Origin: Spiribacter halobius
Lineage (GTDB): Bacteria > Pseudomonadota > Gammaproteobacteria > Nitrococcales > Nitrococcaceae
NCBI RefSeq assembly: GCF_020883455.1
Contig: NZ_CP086615.1
Coordinates: 3,774,501 to 3,838,500, forward strand
Length of the DNA: 64,000 nt
Reading direction: 5' to 3'
A program made the position numbers and the translations under genes. The notes beneath the pieces were generated by a model that did not search any database, was not told where the DNA came from, and saw only the letters and a program-made list of their open reading frames with translations. Below are positions 33,027 through 55,229 of the stretch, piece after piece (position 1 is the first letter of the stretch; every line of letters begins with the position of its first letter).

Positions 33027-34729
<1,703 letters not shown>

Positions 34730-40138: not shown

Positions 40139-40236
40139 CGACCTCCCGGGCTTTTGTCCCGCCGTGTACCCCCCGCAGCAGGAGGCGACGACTCTCGGAC
40201 CAGACATCCCTCCCGGGACCGGAACCCTAGTCGTCC
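40139..40236 (-). ncRNA. Guanidine-I (ykkC) riboswitch
   Basis: On the minus strand the conserved blocks appear in order: ACTAGGGTTCCGG, then TCTGGTCCGAGAGTCGTCG, then GGGGTACACGGCGGGACAAA followed by AGCCCGGGAGGTC. These are the signature segments of the ykkC class that senses guanidinium. It lies about 90 bp before the permease ATG. Guanidine binding should turn on expression of the transport and hydrolase genes. Confidence 0.95.
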
Positions 40237-40302
40237 TTCGCCAGCGCCGGGCCGCTGTCGGCGGCCTGGCAGGGCACGCCCCTGGGCTGGTGAGACCAAA
40301 GG

Positions 40303-46276: not shown

Positions 46277-47092
46277 ATGGCAGCCACCACCGCGTACACC
46301 GTCGAGGCCGCGGCCGCGCAAACGCTCTTCGCGCTCCAGGACGTCACCTTCCGCGTCGACGGGCGGACGCTGCTCGGGCCGGTGGATCTGACCCTCGCTG
46401 CCGGGCAGGTGCACGGGCTCATCGGCCACAACGGCTCCGGCAAGACCAGCCTGCTGCGCCTGCTCGCGCGCCAGCAACCCTGCAGCAGCGGCCACATCCG
46501 CTTTGCCGGCCGCCCGCTGGACGCCTGGCCCCAGCGCGCCCTGGCGCGGGAGATCGCCTATCTCGCCCAGAGCCTGCCCGCTTCCACCGGGCTCACCGTG
46601 CGCGAGCTGACCGCCCTCGGGCGCTATCCCTGGCACGGCGCACTCGGGCGCTTCGGCGCCGAGGACCGGGCGCAGGTGGAGGATGCCCTGGCGCTGACGG
46701 ACATGCAGGGCCTGAGCGAGCGACTGGTGGACACGCTCTCCGGCGGCGAGCGCCAGCGCGCCTGGATCGCCATGCTGGTGGCGCAAAACGCCCGCTGCCT
46801 GCTGCTCGACGAGCCCATCTCCGCCCTGGACATCGCCCACCAGGTGGACGTCATGGGCCTGCTGCAGCGGCTCAGTCACGAGCGCGGCCTCACCGTCATC
46901 ACCGTGCTGCACGACGTCAACATGGCCGCGCGCTACTGCGACGAGCTCATCGCCCTGCAGGCCGGCCGTCTCATCGAGCGCGGCGAGCCCGCGACGATCC
47001 TGCAGCCCGAGCGCCTGGAGCGCATCTACGGCATCCCCATGGGGGTGATGACCCATCCCCGCCTCGGCGTGCCCATCGGCTACGTGGCCTGA
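46277..47092 (+). CDS. fhuC: Iron-siderophore ABC transporter ATP-binding protein (FhuC-like)
   Basis: 271 residues. Walker A IGHNGSGKTSLLRLLARQQP, signature LSGGERQRAWIAMLV, Walker B LLLDEPISALDIAHQVDVMG. ALGRYPWHGALGRFG and VLHDVNMAARYCDELIALQA are typical of FhuC/FecE. It is convergent with the permease gene, 4 bp away, so it has its own promoter although it serves the same importer. Confidence 0.92.
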   Translation: MAATTAYTVEAAAAQTLFALQDVTFRVDGRTLLGPVDLTLAAGQVHGLIGHNGSGKTSLLRLLARQQPCSSGHIRFAGRPLDAWPQRALAREIAYLAQSLPASTGLTVRELTALGRYPWHGALGRFGAEDRAQVEDALALTDMQGLSERLVDTLSGGERQRAWIAMLVAQNARCLLLDEPISALDIAHQVDVMGLLQRLSHERGLTVITVLHDVNMAARYCDELIALQAGRLIERGEPATILQPERLERIYGIPMGVMTHPRLGVPIGYVA

Positions 47093-47096
47093 GGCT

Positions 47097-49130
47097 CTAG
47101 CCCTCACGCCGGTGCAGCAGCCACATGAAGTAGAGCCCTCCGAGCAGCGAGGCGGTGAGGCCCGCCGGCAGCTCGTAGGGCGCCAGCGCCTGGCGCCCCA
47201 GCCAGTCCGCGGCCACCATCAGCGCCACGCCGATGGCCGCGGCACCCGCCAGCTGATCCCGCGCCCGGCGCAGCCCGAGCAGGCTTGCGAGATGCGGCGC
47301 CATGAGGCCGACGAAGCTGAGCGGGCCCACCACCAGTGTCGCCGCCGCGGTAAGCAGCGCCGCCAGCATGAGCAGCACGAGCCGCCCCCGCCGCACGGCC
47401 AGGCCCCGCGCCGCCGCCTGCTCGCCGCCGAGGGCGAGCAGATCGAGCCAGCGATGCAGCGCGAGGCAGACGGGCAGGAGCAGCAGCGCGACCGCGAGGG
47501 TGGCCAGCGCCCCCGGGAGGCTCACGCCGTAGGTCGACCCGGATACCCAGTCCAGGGCCCGGCTCCACTGCAGGCTGCCGCTCGCGAGCACCATGCCGAG
47601 GCCGCCGTCGAACAGGGCCTTCATGGCGATGCCCACCAGCAGCAGCTGCTCCGGGGCGTAGCCGCCGCGCCGCCCGAGGGCGAGCAGCAGGGTCACGGTC
47701 ACCAGCCCGCCGGCCGTTCCCGCCGCCATCAGCGCCGGGGTCGACGCGGCCGGCAGCGCCAGGGCCAGGGCAACGACGCCCGCCAGCGCGCCGCCGCTGA
47801 TGCCGAGCACCTCCGGGCTTGCCATGGGGTTGCGGGTGAGCCGCTGCAGCAGCACGCCGGCCAGCGCCAGGAGGAGCCCGGCGCTGGCTGCCCCGAGCAC
47901 CCGCGGCAGCCGCCAGGGCGCGAGCTCGGTCACCTGCCACGGGATATCCCAGCGCCAGCCAAGCGGGGTCTGGACAACGGCCACGGCGATCAGGCCGGCC
48001 ACCGCAGCCGCGGACGCCAGGCCGGCAATGCGCCGGCCCGGCCGCGCGCTGGCGGCCACCGGGGCGGCTCCGGTACGCGGCGTCGCCGGCAGGCGCTGGC
48101 GGTGCAGCAGCCAGAGCAGCAGCGGCGCGCCCAGCACCGCGGTGAAGGCCCCCGTGGGCAGCAGGCCCGGAAGCCGGGCATCCAGCGGCTGCACCACCTG
48201 ATCGGCCAGCCAGAGCAGGCCGGCGCCGAGCAGCGTCGCGCCGAGCAGGCGCTGCGCGAAGGTTCGGGCGCCGCACAGGCGCGCCAGCGCCGGGCCGGCG
48301 AGACCGACGAAGCCGATGACGCCCACGGCGCTGACCACGCAGGCCGTCAGGTACACCGCGACCGCGAGACAGAGCAGCCGCAGGCGCTGCAGTGACAGGC
48401 CGAGGGCCCGCACCCCCTCGTCACCCAGGCTGAGCAGGGTCAGCGGGCGCACCAGCAGCACGAGCCCCGCGAGCCCGAGCGCGATCCGTGGCGCCAGGAA
48501 CGCCACCTCGCCCCAGCCATGCTGCGCCAGCGCGCCGCCGCCCCAGAGCAGCAGCCCCTGCAGGTCGTACTCGAAGAACAGCAGCAGCGCCGCATTGAGC
48601 GCGCCGGCGTAGAGGCTGACCACCAGCCCCGCGAGCACCAGGGTGAGCGGCTCGAGTCCGCCCCGCCAGGCGAGCGCCACGGTGAGCCCGAGGGCGGCAC
48701 CGGCGCCCAGCACCGCCACCGGCTCGGCGAGCGCACCAAGCCCGGCCGGCACCAGCAGCGTGCCCACCGACAGCGCGAGCTGCGCGCCGCCGGCCACCCC
48801 CAGGGTGAGCGGCGAGGCGATCGGGTTGCGCAGCACCTGCTGCAGCACCGCCCCCGCCGCCCCCAGGGCCGCGCCGGCAAGCAAGGCGACGGCCAGTCGC
48901 GGCAGCCAGCCGTAGAGCGTGGCCGTGACCGTGTACGGCGCCGTCGCCGGGTGTAGCCAGCCATCCACGAGGGTACCGATGCCCGGCAGTGCCGGCGCGT
49001 TGTGCAGGCACAGGGCAAGCCCAGCCAGCAGCAGCGCTGCGCCGGCGATGCCCGGCCACCGGTCAGCCGCCGCGCGCAACGGCGGGCTCCAGGGCTTCGG
49101 CGAAGCGGATGGCGGCGTACATCCCGCCAA
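47097..49130 (-). CDS. fhuB: Iron-siderophore ABC transporter permease, double-length (FhuB-like)
   Basis: 677 residues made of two FecCD-type permease halves, each with about ten membrane segments. Half 1 has QQVLRNPIASPLTLGVAGGA and half 2 has LQRLTRNPMASPEVLGISGG. This fused form is typical of FhuB. The ATG at 49130 overlaps the binding-protein gene by 68 bp; a TTG at 49079 after GGAG is a realistic shorter start. It forms the inner-membrane channel for ferric-hydroxamate type ligands. Confidence 0.92.
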   Translation of the reverse strand: MAGCTPPSASPKPWSPPLRAAADRWPGIAGAALLLAGLALCLHNAPALPGIGTLVDGWLHPATAPYTVTATLYGWLPRLAVALLAGAALGAAGAVLQQVLRNPIASPLTLGVAGGAQLALSVGTLLVPAGLGALAEPVAVLGAGAALGLTVALAWRGGLEPLTLVLAGLVVSLYAGALNAALLLFFEYDLQGLLLWGGGALAQHGWGEVAFLAPRIALGLAGLVLLVRPLTLLSLGDEGVRALGLSLQRLRLLCLAVAVYLTACVVSAVGVIGFVGLAGPALARLCGARTFAQRLLGATLLGAGLLWLADQVVQPLDARLPGLLPTGAFTAVLGAPLLLWLLHRQRLPATPRTGAAPVAASARPGRRIAGLASAAAVAGLIAVAVVQTPLGWRWDIPWQVTELAPWRLPRVLGAASAGLLLALAGVLLQRLTRNPMASPEVLGISGGALAGVVALALALPAASTPALMAAGTAGGLVTVTLLLALGRRGGYAPEQLLLVGIAMKALFDGGLGMVLASGSLQWSRALDWVSGSTYGVSLPGALATLAVALLLLPVCLALHRWLDLLALGGEQAAARGLAVRRGRLVLLMLAALLTAAATLVVGPLSFVGLMAPHLASLLGLRRARDQLAGAAAIGVALMVAADWLGRQALAPYELPAGLTASLLGGLYFMWLLHRREG

Positions 49131-49953
49131 AGGCCCAGACCGGCGGCAGCCGCCGCAGGCCGCCGGAGGCGACCGCGGGCAGCGACTGCCAGACCCGGCT
49201 CCCGGTCATCATGGTCGCGGCGGCGGCCGGCACCGGCTCGACGATCACCAGCCGCGCCGCCTCGGCGTTCAGCCGTCCCAGCGGCACCAGGGCGAACCCC
49301 CAGTGGTTGGTCCCCCCCTGCCAGGCGTTGGCAAGGCCCGCCCGCGCCAGCACCGCCCCGTACAGGCCGTTATCGCCGAATACCCGCAGGTGGGCCGCGT
49401 CCATGAACTGCGCGATGTAGATGGGCCCGTCCAGCGCCGCGGCGGTGCGCCGCAGGGCCGCGATGGCAGCCTCGAGGCGGGCGCGCAGGCGCTCGAAGGC
49501 CGGCTCCCGCCCATACTCCCCGGCCAGCTCGCGGGCCAGCCCAATGGCCGTCTCCAGCGCATCCGCGCCGGGCACGTGCAGGGAGCGCTCGCGCACCGGG
49601 GCGATGCGCTCGAGCCCGGGAGTCCGCCGGTAGGGGGTGACCAGAATGGCCTCGGGCGCCAGAGCGCGCAGGGTGGCCCGGTGCGGGGCGCCGCGGCGGC
49701 CCACGTCCACCGTCCCGGCGGGCAGCACCGGCTCGCCGACCCAGTCCCGGTAGGCCGCCGCGTCGGCGACCCCAGCGGGATGCACGCCGAGCGCGATCAG
49801 GGTCTCGGCGAAGGGCCAGTCGATGGCCACCACGGGCGCGCGCTCGGCCGCGGCATGACTGCCGGCCGCCAGCATGAGCCAGGCGGCGAGGATCAGCCTG
49901 AAGCCGGCGGTGGCCGGCGCCACCGCCGGCGTGCCGGGGGTACTGGCGCGCAT
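49063..49953 (-). CDS. fhuD: Iron-siderophore ABC transporter substrate-binding protein (FhuD-like)
   Basis: 296 residues. Signal peptide LILAAWLMLAAGSHAAAE, then VVAIDWPFAETLIALGVHPA and YRDWVGEPVLPAGTVDVGRR, the start of FhuD-type binding domains. PGLERIAPVRERSLHVPGAD and the long backbone helix follow. No lipobox is seen, so it should be soluble. A site with core GATTCGCAAT stands upstream near 50006. Confidence 0.9.
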   Translation of the reverse strand: MRASTPGTPAVAPATAGFRLILAAWLMLAAGSHAAAERAPVVAIDWPFAETLIALGVHPAGVADAAAYRDWVGEPVLPAGTVDVGRRGAPHRATLRALAPEAILVTPYRRTPGLERIAPVRERSLHVPGADALETAIGLARELAGEYGREPAFERLRARLEAAIAALRRTAAALDGPIYIAQFMDAAHLRVFGDNGLYGAVLARAGLANAWQGGTNHWGFALVPLGRLNAEAARLVIVEPVPAAAATMMTGSRVWQSLPAVASGGLRRLPPVWAFGGMYAAIRFAEALEPAVARGG

Positions 49954-50043: not shown

Positions 50044-51171
50044 TCACCCGCCCAGCGCGGTGAACACCGCCGCGCTCCCCTGCCCGCCCATGGCGGGGAC
50101 GGCGGCGATGCCGGTCTCGTCTGGGGCGAGGTCGTGGAACAGCCGGCAGACCAGCAGCGCCCCGGAGGCGCCGAAGGGGTGACCGAAGGCGAGGGCGCCA
50201 CCATGGAGGTTCGTCCGCGCCTCGGGGAGCCCGGCGCCCCGCAGACAGGCGAGAGCCTGCCCGGCGAAGGCCTCGTTCAGCTCGATGCGCGCGGCGCCCG
50301 TGAACGGCGCGCGCTCGGCCAGCCGCGCGAGGGCGGGGACCGCCGAGTAGCCGGCACGGCCGGGGTCGCAGCCCGCGCGGGCGGCAGCGACCAGGCGCAG
50401 GCTGCGGCCTGGGGCAAGGCGTTGTGCCAGCGCGCTGGAGACCACCAGTGCCACCACCGCCGCGTCCGCCTCTGCGGCGACGTTACCCACGGTGGCGCTG
50501 CCGCCGGGGCCGAGGAGCGGCGGCAGGCGCGCGAGGCGGCGCTCGTCGAGATCCGCCCGCGGGCCCTCGTCGGTGTCGTCGCCAACGCACTCGGCGCGCA
50601 GGTGCCCGGAGCGCAGGGCCGCAGCGGCCCGGGCGTGGCTGCGTGCGGCCCAGGCGTCCTGCTCGGCGCGGGTGATGCCCTCCGCGGCGGCGAGCACGTC
50701 CGCCCCCGCCACGGGGTCGGGATCCGGATACGGCGGCGCGCTGAACGGGGCACGCGGCAGGAACGCGGGCGTGCCGCCGCGATGCGCCGGGCGAGCGACC
50801 CGCCAGGGCGCGGTGCTGCAGCTCTCGACGCCGCCCGCGAGCACCGCCTCCGCCTGCCCGGCCGCCACGCGCTGGCAGGCGTCGATGATCGTGTCCAGGC
50901 CGCTGGCGCACTGGCGGTCCACGGTGAAGGCAGGGACCTCCACCGGCAGGCCGCCGGCAAGAGCGACCCGGCGGGCCACGTTGCCGCCCTCGAGGGCGTT
51001 GCCGAGCCAGACCTCGTCAATTGCCCCCGGCGGCAGGCCCGCGTCCGCCAGCACGGCCCCCACGAGGGGGGCGCCCAGCCGGTCCACCGTGCGCGTGCGC
51101 TGCCGGCCGCCGGCACGGCCGACGGCGGTGCGCCGGCAGGCGATGATCAGCGCCTCGGCCCGTGCGCTCAC
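50044..51171 (-). CDS. Thiolase-family protein (YhfS-like)
   Basis: 375 residues from a GTG overlapping the ligase stop. The acylated nucleophile is in FTVDRQCASGLDTIIDACQR, then RIELNEAFAGQALACLRGAG and LHGGALAFGHPFGASGALLV (catalytic His). The C-terminal catalytic Cys of thiolases (C-x-GGGxG) is missing: the segment reads AVPAMGGQGSAAVF. Such a protein may condense or cleave poorly, or do a different acyl transfer. Last gene of the biotin-linked operon. Confidence 0.87.
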   Translation of the reverse strand: MSARAEALIIACRRTAVGRAGGRQRTRTVDRLGAPLVGAVLADAGLPPGAIDEVWLGNALEGGNVARRVALAGGLPVEVPAFTVDRQCASGLDTIIDACQRVAAGQAEAVLAGGVESCSTAPWRVARPAHRGGTPAFLPRAPFSAPPYPDPDPVAGADVLAAAEGITRAEQDAWAARSHARAAAALRSGHLRAECVGDDTDEGPRADLDERRLARLPPLLGPGGSATVGNVAAEADAAVVALVVSSALAQRLAPGRSLRLVAAARAGCDPGRAGYSAVPALARLAERAPFTGAARIELNEAFAGQALACLRGAGLPEARTNLHGGALAFGHPFGASGALLVCRLFHDLAPDETGIAAVPAMGGQGSAAVFTALGG

Positions 51172-52505
51172 AGCAGACGCTCCCCACGCTCGCCGCCGCC
51201 TGCGAGGGCGGCGGCGAGGGCACGGCGATCGAGCTTGCCGCCTGGCGTGCGTGGTGGCACTCCGATGACGCGCGCGACGCGCAGCGGCGCGGGCGCGAGC
51301 CCCCGGATCACCCGCCGCAGCGCGGCCCGTGCGCCGGCGGGAGGAGGCCCGGCAGTGACCACCGCCGCGACTGCCCGTGTGGTGCGCCGCGCGTCCGGCA
51401 CCGCGACCAGCGCCGCCTCCTCGATCCAGGGCAGGGCCTCGAGGCCGTGCTCCAGGGGCGCGGGGTCCAGCAGCACCCCGCCCGCGTCGATGCACGCGTC
51501 CGCCCGCCCGAGCAGGCGCAGGTGCCCGCTTCCGGTCACGGCGACGCGATCGTTCACGGTGATCCAGCCGCGGGCATCGGCGAGCGGTCGCGGCGCCCCG
51601 TCCGGTCCCTCCTCCGCCAGCGCAGCATAGGGCGTGCGCACGCGCAGGCGGCCGCCGGCGCCAGCCACCGCCTCCACGCCCGGGAACAGCGGTCCGACGT
51701 CCGCCAGGTCGCGGGCGTCCAGCTCCGGTTGCAGGGCCAGGAAGCTCGTCTCCGCCGTGCCGTAGAAGGTCGCGATCCGGACCCCCGGCCAGGCGCTGTG
51801 CAGGAGGGCGATCTGCGCCGGAGTAGGCCGGGTGCCACCGGTGATGATGCGCTGCGGCCGGGGCCCGCCGCGGGCGGCCGGGGCGAGTCGCGCGAGCCCG
51901 GCCACCAGCGCCGGGGCACCGTAGACCACCGTCGGCGCAAGCGCCGTGAGCAGGCGCCGGGCGACGCCAGGGCGCACCCGCGGCAGGACGCCGAGGGCAG
52001 CGCCCAGGTGAAGCGCCCGCAGTGCGGCATAGGGCACCAGGGAGAATTGCGGGCCGCCGAGCACGAGGACACGATCCGCCGGGCTCAGCCCAAGCAGTGA
52101 TTCCTCGGCCGCAAAGCAGCGCAGCCAGGCGCCGCGGTCCCGCAGCAGGCGGCGTGCCGGGCCGGTGGTGCCGGTGGTGCGCAGGGCCATGCACGGGACG
52201 TCTTCGGGGCCAGGAGCCGGCGCCTCGCCGGATGCCGGCGGCCCCTCGGAGCGCCCCATTGGGTCCAGCGTCCAGACCGAGCCGCGCAGGGCGCAGCCGG
52301 CGAGCCAGGGCAGCCAGATGCGGACGTCCTCCCCTGCGACGGGACAGCGCTGCCCGGGTGCGAGAGATGCCGCCGCCCCAAGGGCACGGCACAGGAGCTC
52401 CTCGCGACAGAGCGCGCCCACGGGGGCGAATACCGCCGGTGCCTCCGGGGCCGTTCCGGCCGCCCTGGCCCAGCGCGCCAGCAGCCCGGGGCCAGCGGCG
52501 CTCAT
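51168..52505 (-). CDS. AMP-binding acyl-CoA ligase (YhfT-like)
   Basis: 445 residues, short for the family. The ATP-binding loop is LRTTGTTGPARRLLRD; the adenylation motif is IATFYGTAETSFLAL; the hinge GRADACIDAGGVLLDP; the catalytic Lys in PRTPGGKLDRRALAA. Activates a carboxylic acid to acyl-AMP and acyl-CoA. Overlaps bioY by 4 bp, so it is made with a biotin transporter, as in Bacillus yhfUTS. Substrate is unknown. Confidence 0.87.
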   Translation of the reverse strand: MSAAGPGLLARWARAAGTAPEAPAVFAPVGALCREELLCRALGAAASLAPGQRCPVAGEDVRIWLPWLAGCALRGSVWTLDPMGRSEGPPASGEAPAPGPEDVPCMALRTTGTTGPARRLLRDRGAWLRCFAAEESLLGLSPADRVLVLGGPQFSLVPYAALRALHLGAALGVLPRVRPGVARRLLTALAPTVVYGAPALVAGLARLAPAARGGPRPQRIITGGTRPTPAQIALLHSAWPGVRIATFYGTAETSFLALQPELDARDLADVGPLFPGVEAVAGAGGRLRVRTPYAALAEEGPDGAPRPLADARGWITVNDRVAVTGSGHLRLLGRADACIDAGGVLLDPAPLEHGLEALPWIEEAALVAVPDARRTTRAVAAVVTAGPPPAGARAALRRVIRGLAPAPLRVARVIGVPPRTPGGKLDRRALAAALAGGGERGERLL

Positions 52506-53050
52506 GCTCGCTGCAGCACCGGATAGCCCCGCTGCACCGCCGCTGCGACCAGGGCCGCCGCGACGGCCTTCAGCAGGTCACCGGGCAGGAAGCCCGCCGA
52601 GAGCAGTAGCACCTGGGCGATCGAGGTGTCGGTGATCAGCGCCCAGTAGGGCACGCCCGGCAGATACAGTCCGCCAATGCCGCCCACGACGCTCGCGATC
52701 AGGAAGCGTGGCACCGGCGGGCGCACCGGCAGCCGCTCGGCGAGCAGCCCGGTGATCCAGGCGCCGAGGACGAAGCCGAGCAGGAAGCCCCCCGTCGGTC
52801 CGGCAAGGATGCCGAGCCCGCCACGCCCGCCGGCGAGCAGCGGCAGGCCCAGCAGGACCAGCAGCACGAAGATCGCCATGGCCCCGGCGCCACGGCGCGC
52901 GCCGAGGATGCAGCCGGCGAGCATCACGCCCATGGACTGCGCGGTGATGGGCACGCCGAAGCCGAGGGTGATCTTGGGCATGAGGCCGAGCGCCGCCATC
53001 ACGGCGGCGAACAGTCCCATGAGGACGAGGTCGCGGGTCGGGTGGCTCAT
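52502..53050 (-). CDS. bioY: Biotin transporter substrate-binding membrane protein BioY
   Basis: 182 residues with six membrane helices: LVLMGLFAAVMAALGLMPKI, FGVPITAQSMGVMLAGCILG, the BioY signature GLPLLAGGRGGLGILAGPTG and GFLLGFVLGAWITG. S component of the ECF biotin importer. ATG overlaps the bioN stop (ATGA). Confidence 0.95.
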   Translation of the reverse strand: MSHPTRDLVLMGLFAAVMAALGLMPKITLGFGVPITAQSMGVMLAGCILGARRGAGAMAIFVLLVLLGLPLLAGGRGGLGILAGPTGGFLLGFVLGAWITGLLAERLPVRPPVPRFLIASVVGGIGGLYLPGVPYWALITDTSIAQVLLLSAGFLPGDLLKAVAAALVAAAVQRGYPVLQRA

Positions 53051-53694
53051 TGCGGTTCTTCCTGCTCCCTGTGGTCATGGTGGTCGTCCGTCTCCCTGGC
53101 CAGCGCGCCCCGCGCCTCCACCGCCTCGGCCACGCGGTCGGAGAGGCGCAGCGCCCGGATTGTGAGCGGCACGGCGAGGGCCAGGGGGTTGCGGCGAAGC
53201 CCGCGCGCCGCCTGGGCTGCGCGCGCCTCCTCGATCATGCCCTGGAGCATGGGCACGAATCGCACCGCCATGGTCAGGGCAAAGGCGATCCGGGCCGGGG
53301 CGACACCCAGGCGGCGCAACGGCGCCAGGACCCGCTCGAGCACCGCCATCATCTCGGAGAAGGGCGTGGTGGCCGTCACCAGGCCTGCCGCCCAGACCAG
53401 TCCGAGCACCCGCGCCACGGTGAGCGCAGCCGCCGTCGGGCCGTCGAACCAGGCCTGGGCGAGCGCGATCAGGGCAAGCAAAGGCGCCAGGTTGCGGGCC
53501 TGGTGCCAGACCGCGGCAACCGGTACCCGGCCAAGGGGATAGAGGGCCGCCACCACCGTGGCACCGGCAACGGTGACCGGCAGGCTCGGGACGGCGAAGG
53601 CCACGGTGCCGAGCAGCATGAGCGCGAGCAGCTTGGCACCCGCCGGCAGGGCGTGCACGGGGGACGGCCCGGGGACGTACAGGCCGGCGATCAT
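53047..53694 (-). CDS. bioN: ECF transporter transmembrane protein BioN (EcfT)
   Basis: 215 residues with about four or five membrane segments. Signatures are LYVPGPSPVHALPAGAKLLA and the coupling-helix motifs VAPARIAFALTMAVRFVPML and EARAAQAARGLRRN (Ala-Arg-Gly). Couples ATP hydrolysis by BioM to BioY. Overlaps both neighbours by 4 bp. Confidence 0.93.
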   Translation of the reverse strand: MIAGLYVPGPSPVHALPAGAKLLALMLLGTVAFAVPSLPVTVAGATVVAALYPLGRVPVAAVWHQARNLAPLLALIALAQAWFDGPTAAALTVARVLGLVWAAGLVTATTPFSEMMAVLERVLAPLRRLGVAPARIAFALTMAVRFVPMLQGMIEEARAAQAARGLRRNPLALAVPLTIRALRLSDRVAEAVEARGALARETDDHHDHREQEEPQ

Positions 53695-54407
53695 GCGGCT
53701 GCCTCCGCCGCCTCACGCGCCTCGACCAGCGCCAGGTAGGCGTCGACGGCCGTGCCCGGTGGGGCGTCGGCGTGCAGACGGCCGCCGTCGACCACCAGCA
53801 CCCGGTCGAAGCCTTCCAGCAGCTCGAGATCGTGAGTGGCGACGATCAGGCGCTGGGACAGCGGCTCCAGCAGTCGCCGCAGGCGACGCTGCCCGGGCAG
53901 GTCCAGCATGCTGGTGGGCTCATCCAGCACCAGGATTTCCGGGCGCATGGCGAGGATGCAGGCAAGGGCAAGGCGGCGCTTCTCGCCGCCGCTCAGCAGG
54001 TGCGCGGAGCGCGCGGTCATTCCGGCGAGACCGAACTGCGCCAGCGCCGCCTCCGCGCGCTGGCGGCGGGCCTCTGGCGCCAGGCCCAGCGCCTTCAGAC
54101 CCAGATCCATCTCCTCCCCCACCGTGGGCATGAGGATCTGCGCATCCGCGTCCTGGAAGACGAACCCCACCCGGCGGCGCACCCGGCGCGTGGCGCGGGC
54201 CACGTCCAGACCGTCCACCCGCACCCGTCCGGCAGTGGGGGTGACCAGCCCGTTCAGGCAGCGGAGCAGCGTGCTCTTGCCGGAGCCGTTCGCCCCGATG
54301 AGGCCGATGCGCTGCTCCGTCAGCCGCAGCGCCGGGATATCCAGGAGCTGCTGCCCGTGGGCCTCGACTCGCAGCGCCTGCAGCTCGATGGCGGGCTCAG
54401 CGCCCAT
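53691..54407 (-). CDS. bioM: ECF transporter ATP-binding protein BioM (EcfA)
   Basis: 238 residues. Walker A IGANGSGKSTLLRCLNGLVT, VGFVFQDADAQILMPTVGEE with the Q-loop, signature LSGGEKRRLALACIL, Walker B ILVLDEPTSMLDLPGQRRLR. Overlaps the end of the MaoC-like gene. Confidence 0.94.
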   Translation of the reverse strand: MGAEPAIELQALRVEAHGQQLLDIPALRLTEQRIGLIGANGSGKSTLLRCLNGLVTPTAGRVRVDGLDVARATRRVRRRVGFVFQDADAQILMPTVGEEMDLGLKALGLAPEARRQRAEAALAQFGLAGMTARSAHLLSGGEKRRLALACILAMRPEILVLDEPTSMLDLPGQRRLRRLLEPLSQRLIVATHDLELLEGFDRVLVVDGGRLHADAPPGTAVDAYLALVEAREAAEAAA

Positions 54408-54885
54408 TGCCCGCCCCCGCGACGATCACGCTGAGGAACCGACCGGTGAGGGCCGCGCGCCCGGCCCCCTCTCGCTCCAAACGGGCCGCGGTCTCCAGCC
54501 AGTAGCGCCCGCCGCCGAGCGGGCGGAAGCGCTGCGGCCGCCCACGCAGGCGGATGCGCTGGCCGGCGGCCACGGGGCTGCGGATGCGCAGGCCGTCGTA
54601 ACCCGCCTGCAGCAGGCGCTCGGCCCAGGGCAGCGGGTAGAGGCCCTGCAGCAGGCCGGCGGCGAGCCCGACCAGCAGCGCGCCCTGGGCGACAACGGGC
54701 TCGCCGGCAGCCAAGCCGCCTCCGTGGATCGGCTGGTCGTCGCCGGTGAGCGCTGCGAACTCACGGAACGCGGCCAGCGGGACCGGCTGCCACGCCGTCG
54801 GTGGCAGCTCGCGACCGACGGCCTCGGCGAGTGAGTCCGGCGTCGGCCAGGGCGTTGGCGCCGCGGGGGCGTCCGGGCACGGCAT
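54397..54885 (-). CDS. MaoC-like hot-dog domain protein
   Basis: 162 residues. The hydratase motif is FAALTGDDQPIHGGGLAAGE, with the catalytic Asp and His of MaoC-type enoyl-CoA hydratases; residues about 105-150 hold the second beta section (IRSPVAAGQRIRLRGRPQRF). It is first in the bioMNY-ligase-thiolase operon, behind a BirA box. Together with the ligase and thiolase it suggests acyl-CoA chemistry on a biotin-related acid. The true substrate is unknown. Confidence 0.8.
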   Translation of the reverse strand: MPCPDAPAAPTPWPTPDSLAEAVGRELPPTAWQPVPLAAFREFAALTGDDQPIHGGGLAAGEPVVAQGALLVGLAAGLLQGLYPLPWAERLLQAGYDGLRIRSPVAAGQRIRLRGRPQRFRPLGGGRYWLETAARLEREGAGRAALTGRFLSVIVAGAGNGR

Positions 54886-54976
54886 GGGGCTCTCCGGTGA
54901 GTGACGGCGGCATCGCTGTTCGCTGCCGCCACGACGAAACGGAATGAACGCCAGTCTGCCGGGCGGGACGGGGTTC

Positions 54977-55006
54977 GTAAACCTGAGATGGATCGGTGGG
55001 GTTTAC
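54977..55006. promoter_or_regulatory. BirA box (biotin operator)
   Basis: GTAAACC at 54977-54983 and GGTTTAC at 55000-55006 are exact inverted halves with a 16-base spacer, matching the BirA operator TTGTAAACC-n15/16-GGTTTACAA. It lies about 90 bp upstream of the MaoC-like gene, so biotin should repress this operon. Confidence 0.85.
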
Positions 55007-55229
55007 GGCAGCCGCATGGCGGGACCACGGGCTCCGGGCTTGCGCGCGGAGCGCAGTGCCGGACGCCGCGCAGCGGCGTTTCGCGGTCGGAGACCGCTCC
55101 CAAGGGGATCGCGCCGGAATCGGCGCGGCGGCGGGGACCTGCCCCGCCTCGCGTCCGGAACGCCCGCTGGAGCGGCTCCAGCGCCGCGGCGCACAGGCCC
55201 GCTGAGACCTGACAATACTTCCGAAACGA
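55007..55229. other. Structured intergenic stretch before the biotin operon
   Basis: No gene. A hairpin CGCTGGAG-CGG-CTCCAGCG (55165-55183) lies after the metR stop on its strand and may act as terminator. Other GC-rich inverted repeats are weak. Confidence 0.45.

Follow-up and report, generated by a model that had tools for sequence, protein, structure and literature searches.

Genes and operator at the locus

A 64,000-nucleotide (nt) stretch of the Spiribacter halobius genome (contig NZ_CP086615.1, positions 3,774,501 to 3,838,500), referred to here as the window, was analyzed for a predicted biotin-related operon on its minus strand. Six genes were identified there from the sequence and from Pfam matches: a MaoC-like gene, the genes bioM, bioN, and bioY of an energy-coupling factor (ECF) importer, an adenosine monophosphate (AMP)-dependent ligase gene, and a thiolase-like gene (Table 1). 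The MaoC-like gene and bioM were read to overlap by 11 nt, the bioM/bioN, bioN/bioY, and bioY/ligase junctions are ATGA overlaps, and the ligase/thiolase junction is a GTGA overlap, which places the thiolase start at position 51171. This overlap at every junction is the pattern of a single translationally coupled operon. The initial annotation had described a BirA box followed by a MaoC-like gene, bioM, bioN, bioY, a ligase, and a thiolase with overlapping starts, and all of these genes were found at this place and on this strand.

Table 1. Features of the biotin-related operon, with positions counted from the first nucleotide of the window
Feature	Coordinates	Strand	Length (amino acids)	Evidence
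BirA-type operator, TCGTAAACC-N16-GGTTTACGG (plus-strand letters)	54975..55008	-		15/18 against the BirA consensus
MaoC-like hot-dog protein, first gene	54397..54885	-	162	PF01575, 21.4 bits (cut-off 27)
bioM, ECF ATPase	53691..54407	-	238	PF00005, 110.6 bits; best NCBIfam match ECF_ATPase_1, under its cut-off
bioN, ECF T component	53047..53694	-	215	PF02361 (CbiQ), 49.9 bits
bioY, biotin S component	52502..53050	-	182	PF02632, 123.1 bits
AMP-dependent ligase, YhfT-like	51168..52505	-	445	PF00501; best NCBIfam match NF005797/PRK07638, 91 bits
Thiolase-like acyltransferase	50044..51171	-	375	TIGR01930, 282 bits; Cys89 and His348 present, Cys378 replaced by Pro

Matches over the Pfam cut-offs were obtained for BioY, CbiQ/BioN, the ABC ATPase, AMP-binding, and Thiolase_N/C. 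With PF02632, PF02361, and PF00005 all represented in adjoining genes, BioMNY is predicted by family assignment to be a biotin transporter. As in the tripartite BioMNY of the Rhodobacter capsulatus type, the ATPase, T, and S genes follow the order M-N-Y, but unlike in that type they are transcribed with ligase and thiolase-like genes.

The BirA-type operator lies 89 nt before the start of the MaoC-like gene, which is therefore taken as the first gene of the operon. The site was scored against the BirA consensus of E. coli and Bacillus operators, TTGTAAACC-N15/16-GGTTTACAA, and none of 20 shuffled windows gave a comparable site. The core GTAAACC-N16-GGTTTAC has one exact match in the complete, single-contig genome of 4.17 megabases, and that match is this operator. 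Allowing one mismatch in the core added no site to the genome scan; with two mismatches four sites appeared, against one for a reversed control pattern. Elsewhere in the genome, a BirA protein was identified over the curated cut-off (G000:C1:3378102-3378791); its translation was read as that of a group II BirA with an N-terminal helix-turn-helix, and the gene adjoins that of a type III pantothenate kinase. The operator before the operon and the group II BirA together support the earlier proposal of a BirA-controlled operon, in which BirA is predicted to bind at the operator and repression to be exerted by biotin. A second biotin-protein-ligase-like protein (G000:C1:75247-75900, L062) scored 80 bits, under the cut-off; it has no obvious helix-turn-helix and is encoded beside a HemF-like gene.

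The MaoC-like protein fell under the gathering score of its family (21.4 versus 27 bits). In the PDB it matches the dehydratase-like Rv0130 best, and the hydratase Asp and His are kept, with TGDDQPIH aligning with TGDHQWIH of Rv0130. No close relative was found among 94 related genomes, where the best match reached 33%, and relatives of the gene were absent from the plasmids searched and from the nearest module, that of Aquisalimonas lutea. A conserved hydratase, as the initial annotation had it, was not borne out by these searches, and the MaoC-like gene is a local addition specific to this genome.

Distribution of the module and of biotin synthesis genes

A ligase search of 369 gammaproteobacterial genomes returned only the query itself at E < 1e-20. 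A contig scan identified Aquisalimonas lutea as the sole close relative. The operon there is the nearest to that of the window, and a weaker box (13/18, likewise with a 16-base spacer; L033:4051-4084) was found shortly before its bioM. The remaining relatives were drawn from plasmids and from a phylum sample of 397 Pseudomonadota genomes. The gene order bioM-bioN-bioY-ligase-thiolase was found on plasmids of Azospirillum, a Paracoccus, and Microvirga, and also on a megaplasmid of the actinomycete Streptantibioticus cattleyicolor. In the phylum sample, 16 genomes were classified as carriers by a ligase match of over 280 bits. The thiolase gene directly follows the ligase gene in all 16, and BioY adjoins the pair in nine, the window genome included (8/15 among the others). 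The Rhodobacterales versions add a nitroreductase-family gene, as do those of two gammaproteobacteria (G573 and G275), while in Rhizobiaceae the ligase-thiolase pair occurs without BioY and with a 4HBT hot-dog gene. The BioMNY-ligase-thiolase module is widespread but patchy, occurring in Alphaproteobacteria, other Gammaproteobacteria, and one actinomycete. This recurrence in distant groups, found by the comparison of genomes that the initial annotation had suggested, bears out its description of a conserved and functionally unassigned set.

Two further observations were made near the pairs. In Rhizobiaceae (L103-L105, L048), a zinc-type dehydrogenase and an NAD(P)-binding protein are encoded nearby, and the substrate there is possibly a different one. 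Paracoccus sp. SMMA_5 encodes a further short AMP-binding protein (L047:9214-10407) about 1.1 kilobases (kb) from the module thiolase.

In Staphylococcus aureus, it is established that BirA controls yhfS-yhfT and bioY (PMC6391492, PMC7235819); such control has also been reported for Bacillus subtilis (PMC11089781), and none of these papers assigns a function to the set. The kinship with the Bacillus BioY-ligase-thiolase set noted initially was recovered in the profile matches, where PRK07638 is the best NCBIfam match of the window ligase and PRK06690 the third of the thiolase-like protein. However, both scores are far under the equivalog cut-offs (91 versus 518 bits and 205 versus 498 bits, respectively), which points to a variant of the yhfUTS set rather than an ortholog. 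Like yhfUTS and the S. aureus set, the window operon combines BioY, a PRK07638-type ligase, a PRK06690-type thiolase, and predicted BirA control. In contrast to yhfUTS, it includes a dedicated BioMN and the MaoC-like gene, and it resides in a genome with neither BioB nor BioD over cut-off.

The best scores for BioB and BioD in this genome were 24.2 and 23.8 bits, both under cut-off, in a search that covered these two proteins and not BioA or BioF. The genome is predicted to be unable to make biotin by the known route. Among 17 carriers, this genome included, BioB was absent in 14 and BioD in 16, with BioD over cut-off in the remaining one. BioB was found in 38 of 59 related genomes. Aquisalimonas lutea is the one further carrier in this set; no BioB passed the cut-off there, whereas its three congeners with a completeness of at least 90% encode BioB and have no module. 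Within the phylum sample, 13 of the 16 carriers were without BioB. When the window genome was excluded, BioB was lacking in 12/15 carriers versus 82/381 other genomes (p = 4e-6, a value that ignores phylogeny).

These distributions bear on one of the roles first suggested for the set, in which a biotin precursor acid (pimelate or desthiobiotin, for example) would be salvaged. The ligase and thiolase could in principle yield pimeloyl-coenzyme A (CoA), and full bio operons accompany the homologues in Bacillus and Staphylococcus. Since BioB and BioD are mostly absent in the carriers, the window genome among them, such a pathway is regarded as extremely unlikely. A related comparison is offered by BioZ and the ketoacyl synthases of biotin precursor synthesis, in which a thiolase superfamily enzyme is likewise tied to biotin. 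BioZ makes 3-ketopimeloyl-acyl carrier protein in biotin producers (PMC11089781), whereas carriers of the window set are mostly without BioB and BioD.

The ligase-thiolase pair and its surroundings

The PF00501 match of the window ligase covers only positions 154-353 of the 384 in the profile, its N-terminal part being either shortened or too divergent, and this part is short in many of the 31 ligases compared, the window protein included. The A5 Glu, A8 Arg, and A10 Lys are invariant in all 31. Adenylation should therefore work, and the ligases are predicted to be adenylation-competent.

The thiolase-like protein of the window exceeds the TIGR01930 cut-off of 240.55 bits, and it resembles thiolases (acetyl-CoA C-acyltransferases) in sequence family and in Cys89, Asn316, and His348. 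It was compared with the other module thiolases in a set of 29, one of which, from Rhizobium acidisoli, belongs to a pair with no BioY next to it. Cys89 and His348 (in the GHP motif) are invariant in all 29, and the module thiolases group in a single clade (support 0.996). Unlike in thiolases, Cys378 of the CxG motif is absent in every member: the general base of a functional thiolase is replaced by Pro in the window protein and by Pro, Ser, Gly, or Ala across the set. The surroundings of Cys89 also differ, the usual N-x-x-C being replaced by D-x-Q-C. The five other thiolases of this genome all keep Cys378 along with the rest of the catalytic residues, with His for Asn316 in one. A putative Bacillus YhfS sequence matched PRK06690 best (389 bits) and is also without Cys378, and it is regarded as a lead only.

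In the thiolase mechanism, Cys378 removes or returns the C2 proton of acetyl-CoA. Its loss means that neither the usual thiolysis nor the usual Claisen condensation with acetyl-CoA is to be expected, and on these residues the biotin side chain is unlikely to be shortened by ordinary thiolysis. An acyl-Cys89 intermediate could still form, and an activation of the acid followed by acyl transfer via Cys89 would fit better than thiolysis. An AlphaFold2 model of the thiolase made from two sequences had a mean predicted local distance difference test score of 33 and was not used. Long open reading frames in two loci (L098, L100) were considered as ligase-thiolase fusions and rejected, as the two genes lie in different frames.

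The residues and partner genes were weighed against three further roles of the pair. Beta-oxidation of the biotin side chain by the ligase, a MaoC hydratase, and the thiolase, corresponding to the side-chain shortening that the initial annotation had suggested, follows from the family names of the three proteins. The missing base in every module thiolase is at odds with it, as are an operon with no acyl-CoA dehydrogenase or hydroxyacyl dehydrogenase and a MaoC gene that is not conserved. It would also make little sense for an auxotroph to destroy scarce biotin, and this role is considered very improbable.

The opposite reaction, the re-lengthening of a shortened biotin such as bisnorbiotin, would have the ligase form the CoA ester and the thiolase-like enzyme join it to a malonyl unit in the manner of ketoacyl synthases, after which reductase and hot-dog partners would complete the C2 extension. 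The loss of Cys378 leaves a ketoacyl-synthase-like Cys-Asn-His set that would suit such a condensation. Nitroreductase partners are available in Rhodobacterales and two gammaproteobacteria, and a hot-dog partner is encoded both here (MaoC) and in Rhizobiaceae (4HBT). Position 316 is Asn, Met, or His across the 29 proteins, however, and the Met of the Rhodobacterales members is poor for decarboxylative condensation. The partner genes are not constant and most operons have no ketoreductase, so re-lengthening is considered quite unlikely. The His at this position occurs in G573 and G275 (LHDAFA; L101, L107), where it gives the Cys-His-His set found in ketoacyl synthases.

A third role would be the trapping or alternative transfer of biotin, in which the ligase makes biotinyl-AMP or biotinyl-CoA and the thiolase-like protein hands biotin on, in parallel to BirA. 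Invariant adenylation residues, a conserved Cys-His dyad, and an operon dedicated to biotin import are all compatible with this scheme. A normal BirA ligase is nonetheless encoded and leaves no evident need for it, and the scheme is judged unlikely.

Downstream of the operon, the fhuD start lies about 90 nt from the thiolase-like gene on the same strand. A terminator scan 3' of the thiolase-like gene found none, and promoter and terminator scans at both ends of the operon returned nothing. The ferric hydroxamate genes encoding FhuC, FhuB, and FhuD occupy window positions 46277-49953 directly downstream, and in Paracoccus alcaliphilus (L049) an fhuB gene is also found no more than about 4 kb from the module. 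Farther away in the window, a Guanidine-I riboswitch was identified at 40141-40241 (minus strand, 89.6 bits). An Rfam match to the 5' ureB small RNA at 34297-34579 (plus strand, 89.9 bits) may only mirror homology to the ureB coding region.

A possible role in biotin starvation

The preferred reading, which is held tentatively, is that of a biotin-starvation operon for the salvage or processing of imported or side-chain-altered biotin in a cell without biotin synthesis. When biotin is low, BirA would leave the operator, and the BioMNY importer, the ligase, and the thiolase-like enzyme would be made together. The ligase would then adenylate a carboxylic acid imported via BioY, either biotin or a side-chain-altered biotin. 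The activated acyl group would be passed to CoA or straight to Cys89 of the thiolase-like partner, which may transfer or release it. The partner is not regarded as an ordinary thiolase because the base for Claisen chemistry is lost.

Several observations weigh against a biotin-salvage role. The association with missing BioB is partly phylogenetic, as most carriers are alphaproteobacteria, in which BioB is often missing, and the loss of BioB within the order was not significant by ordinary counts (2/2 versus 11/37, p = 0.11); the direction of the association is clear despite phylogeny. Bacillus and Staphylococcus have yhfTS yet can make biotin. No convincing BioR or BirA box was found upstream of the alphaproteobacterial operons, in agreement with a report of the Paracoccus denitrificans bioMNY2 operon without a BioR site (PMC4554459). 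In addition, biotin is a candidate substrate only, and since 7 of the 16 carriers encode the pair with no adjacent BioY, biotin may not be its target in every case.

These seven carriers, together with the acyl-CoA families to which the pair belongs, also speak for the main rival, a fatty-acid response to failing acetyl-CoA carboxylase. Low biotin disables this enzyme, and the ligase and acyltransferase would use external fatty acids, so that the link to BioY would be one of shared regulation. However, the pair stays in the importer operon in alphaproteobacteria and in the actinomycete, where no known biotin operator was found (the scan covering the alphaproteobacteria alone), and this linkage favors a shared substrate over shared regulation only. 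The ligase is also short of much of its N-terminal part. A fatty-acid supply is accordingly given a modest chance, and the salvage of biotin or a side-chain-altered form is preferred.

A more specific and rather unlikely extension of biotin salvage is vitamin repair, in which the ligase and the thiolase-fold enzyme without Cys378 would return damaged or side-chain-altered biotin, for example bisnorbiotin, to usable biotin in auxotrophs. Such a repair would use thiolase-fold chemistry without the usual Claisen base, a step not described before and one that is put forward with the same reserve.

The module has spread to distant groups and is concentrated in genomes unable to make biotin, and its thiolases have lost the base throughout their clade, which narrows the question. 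Most likely, the substrate of the pair is scavenged biotin or a related compound rather than a precursor, and the reaction is not normal thiolysis. With the BioY-ligase-thiolase set already known under BirA in Bacillus and Staphylococcus, a gap in vitamin metabolism is now testable with two purified enzymes.

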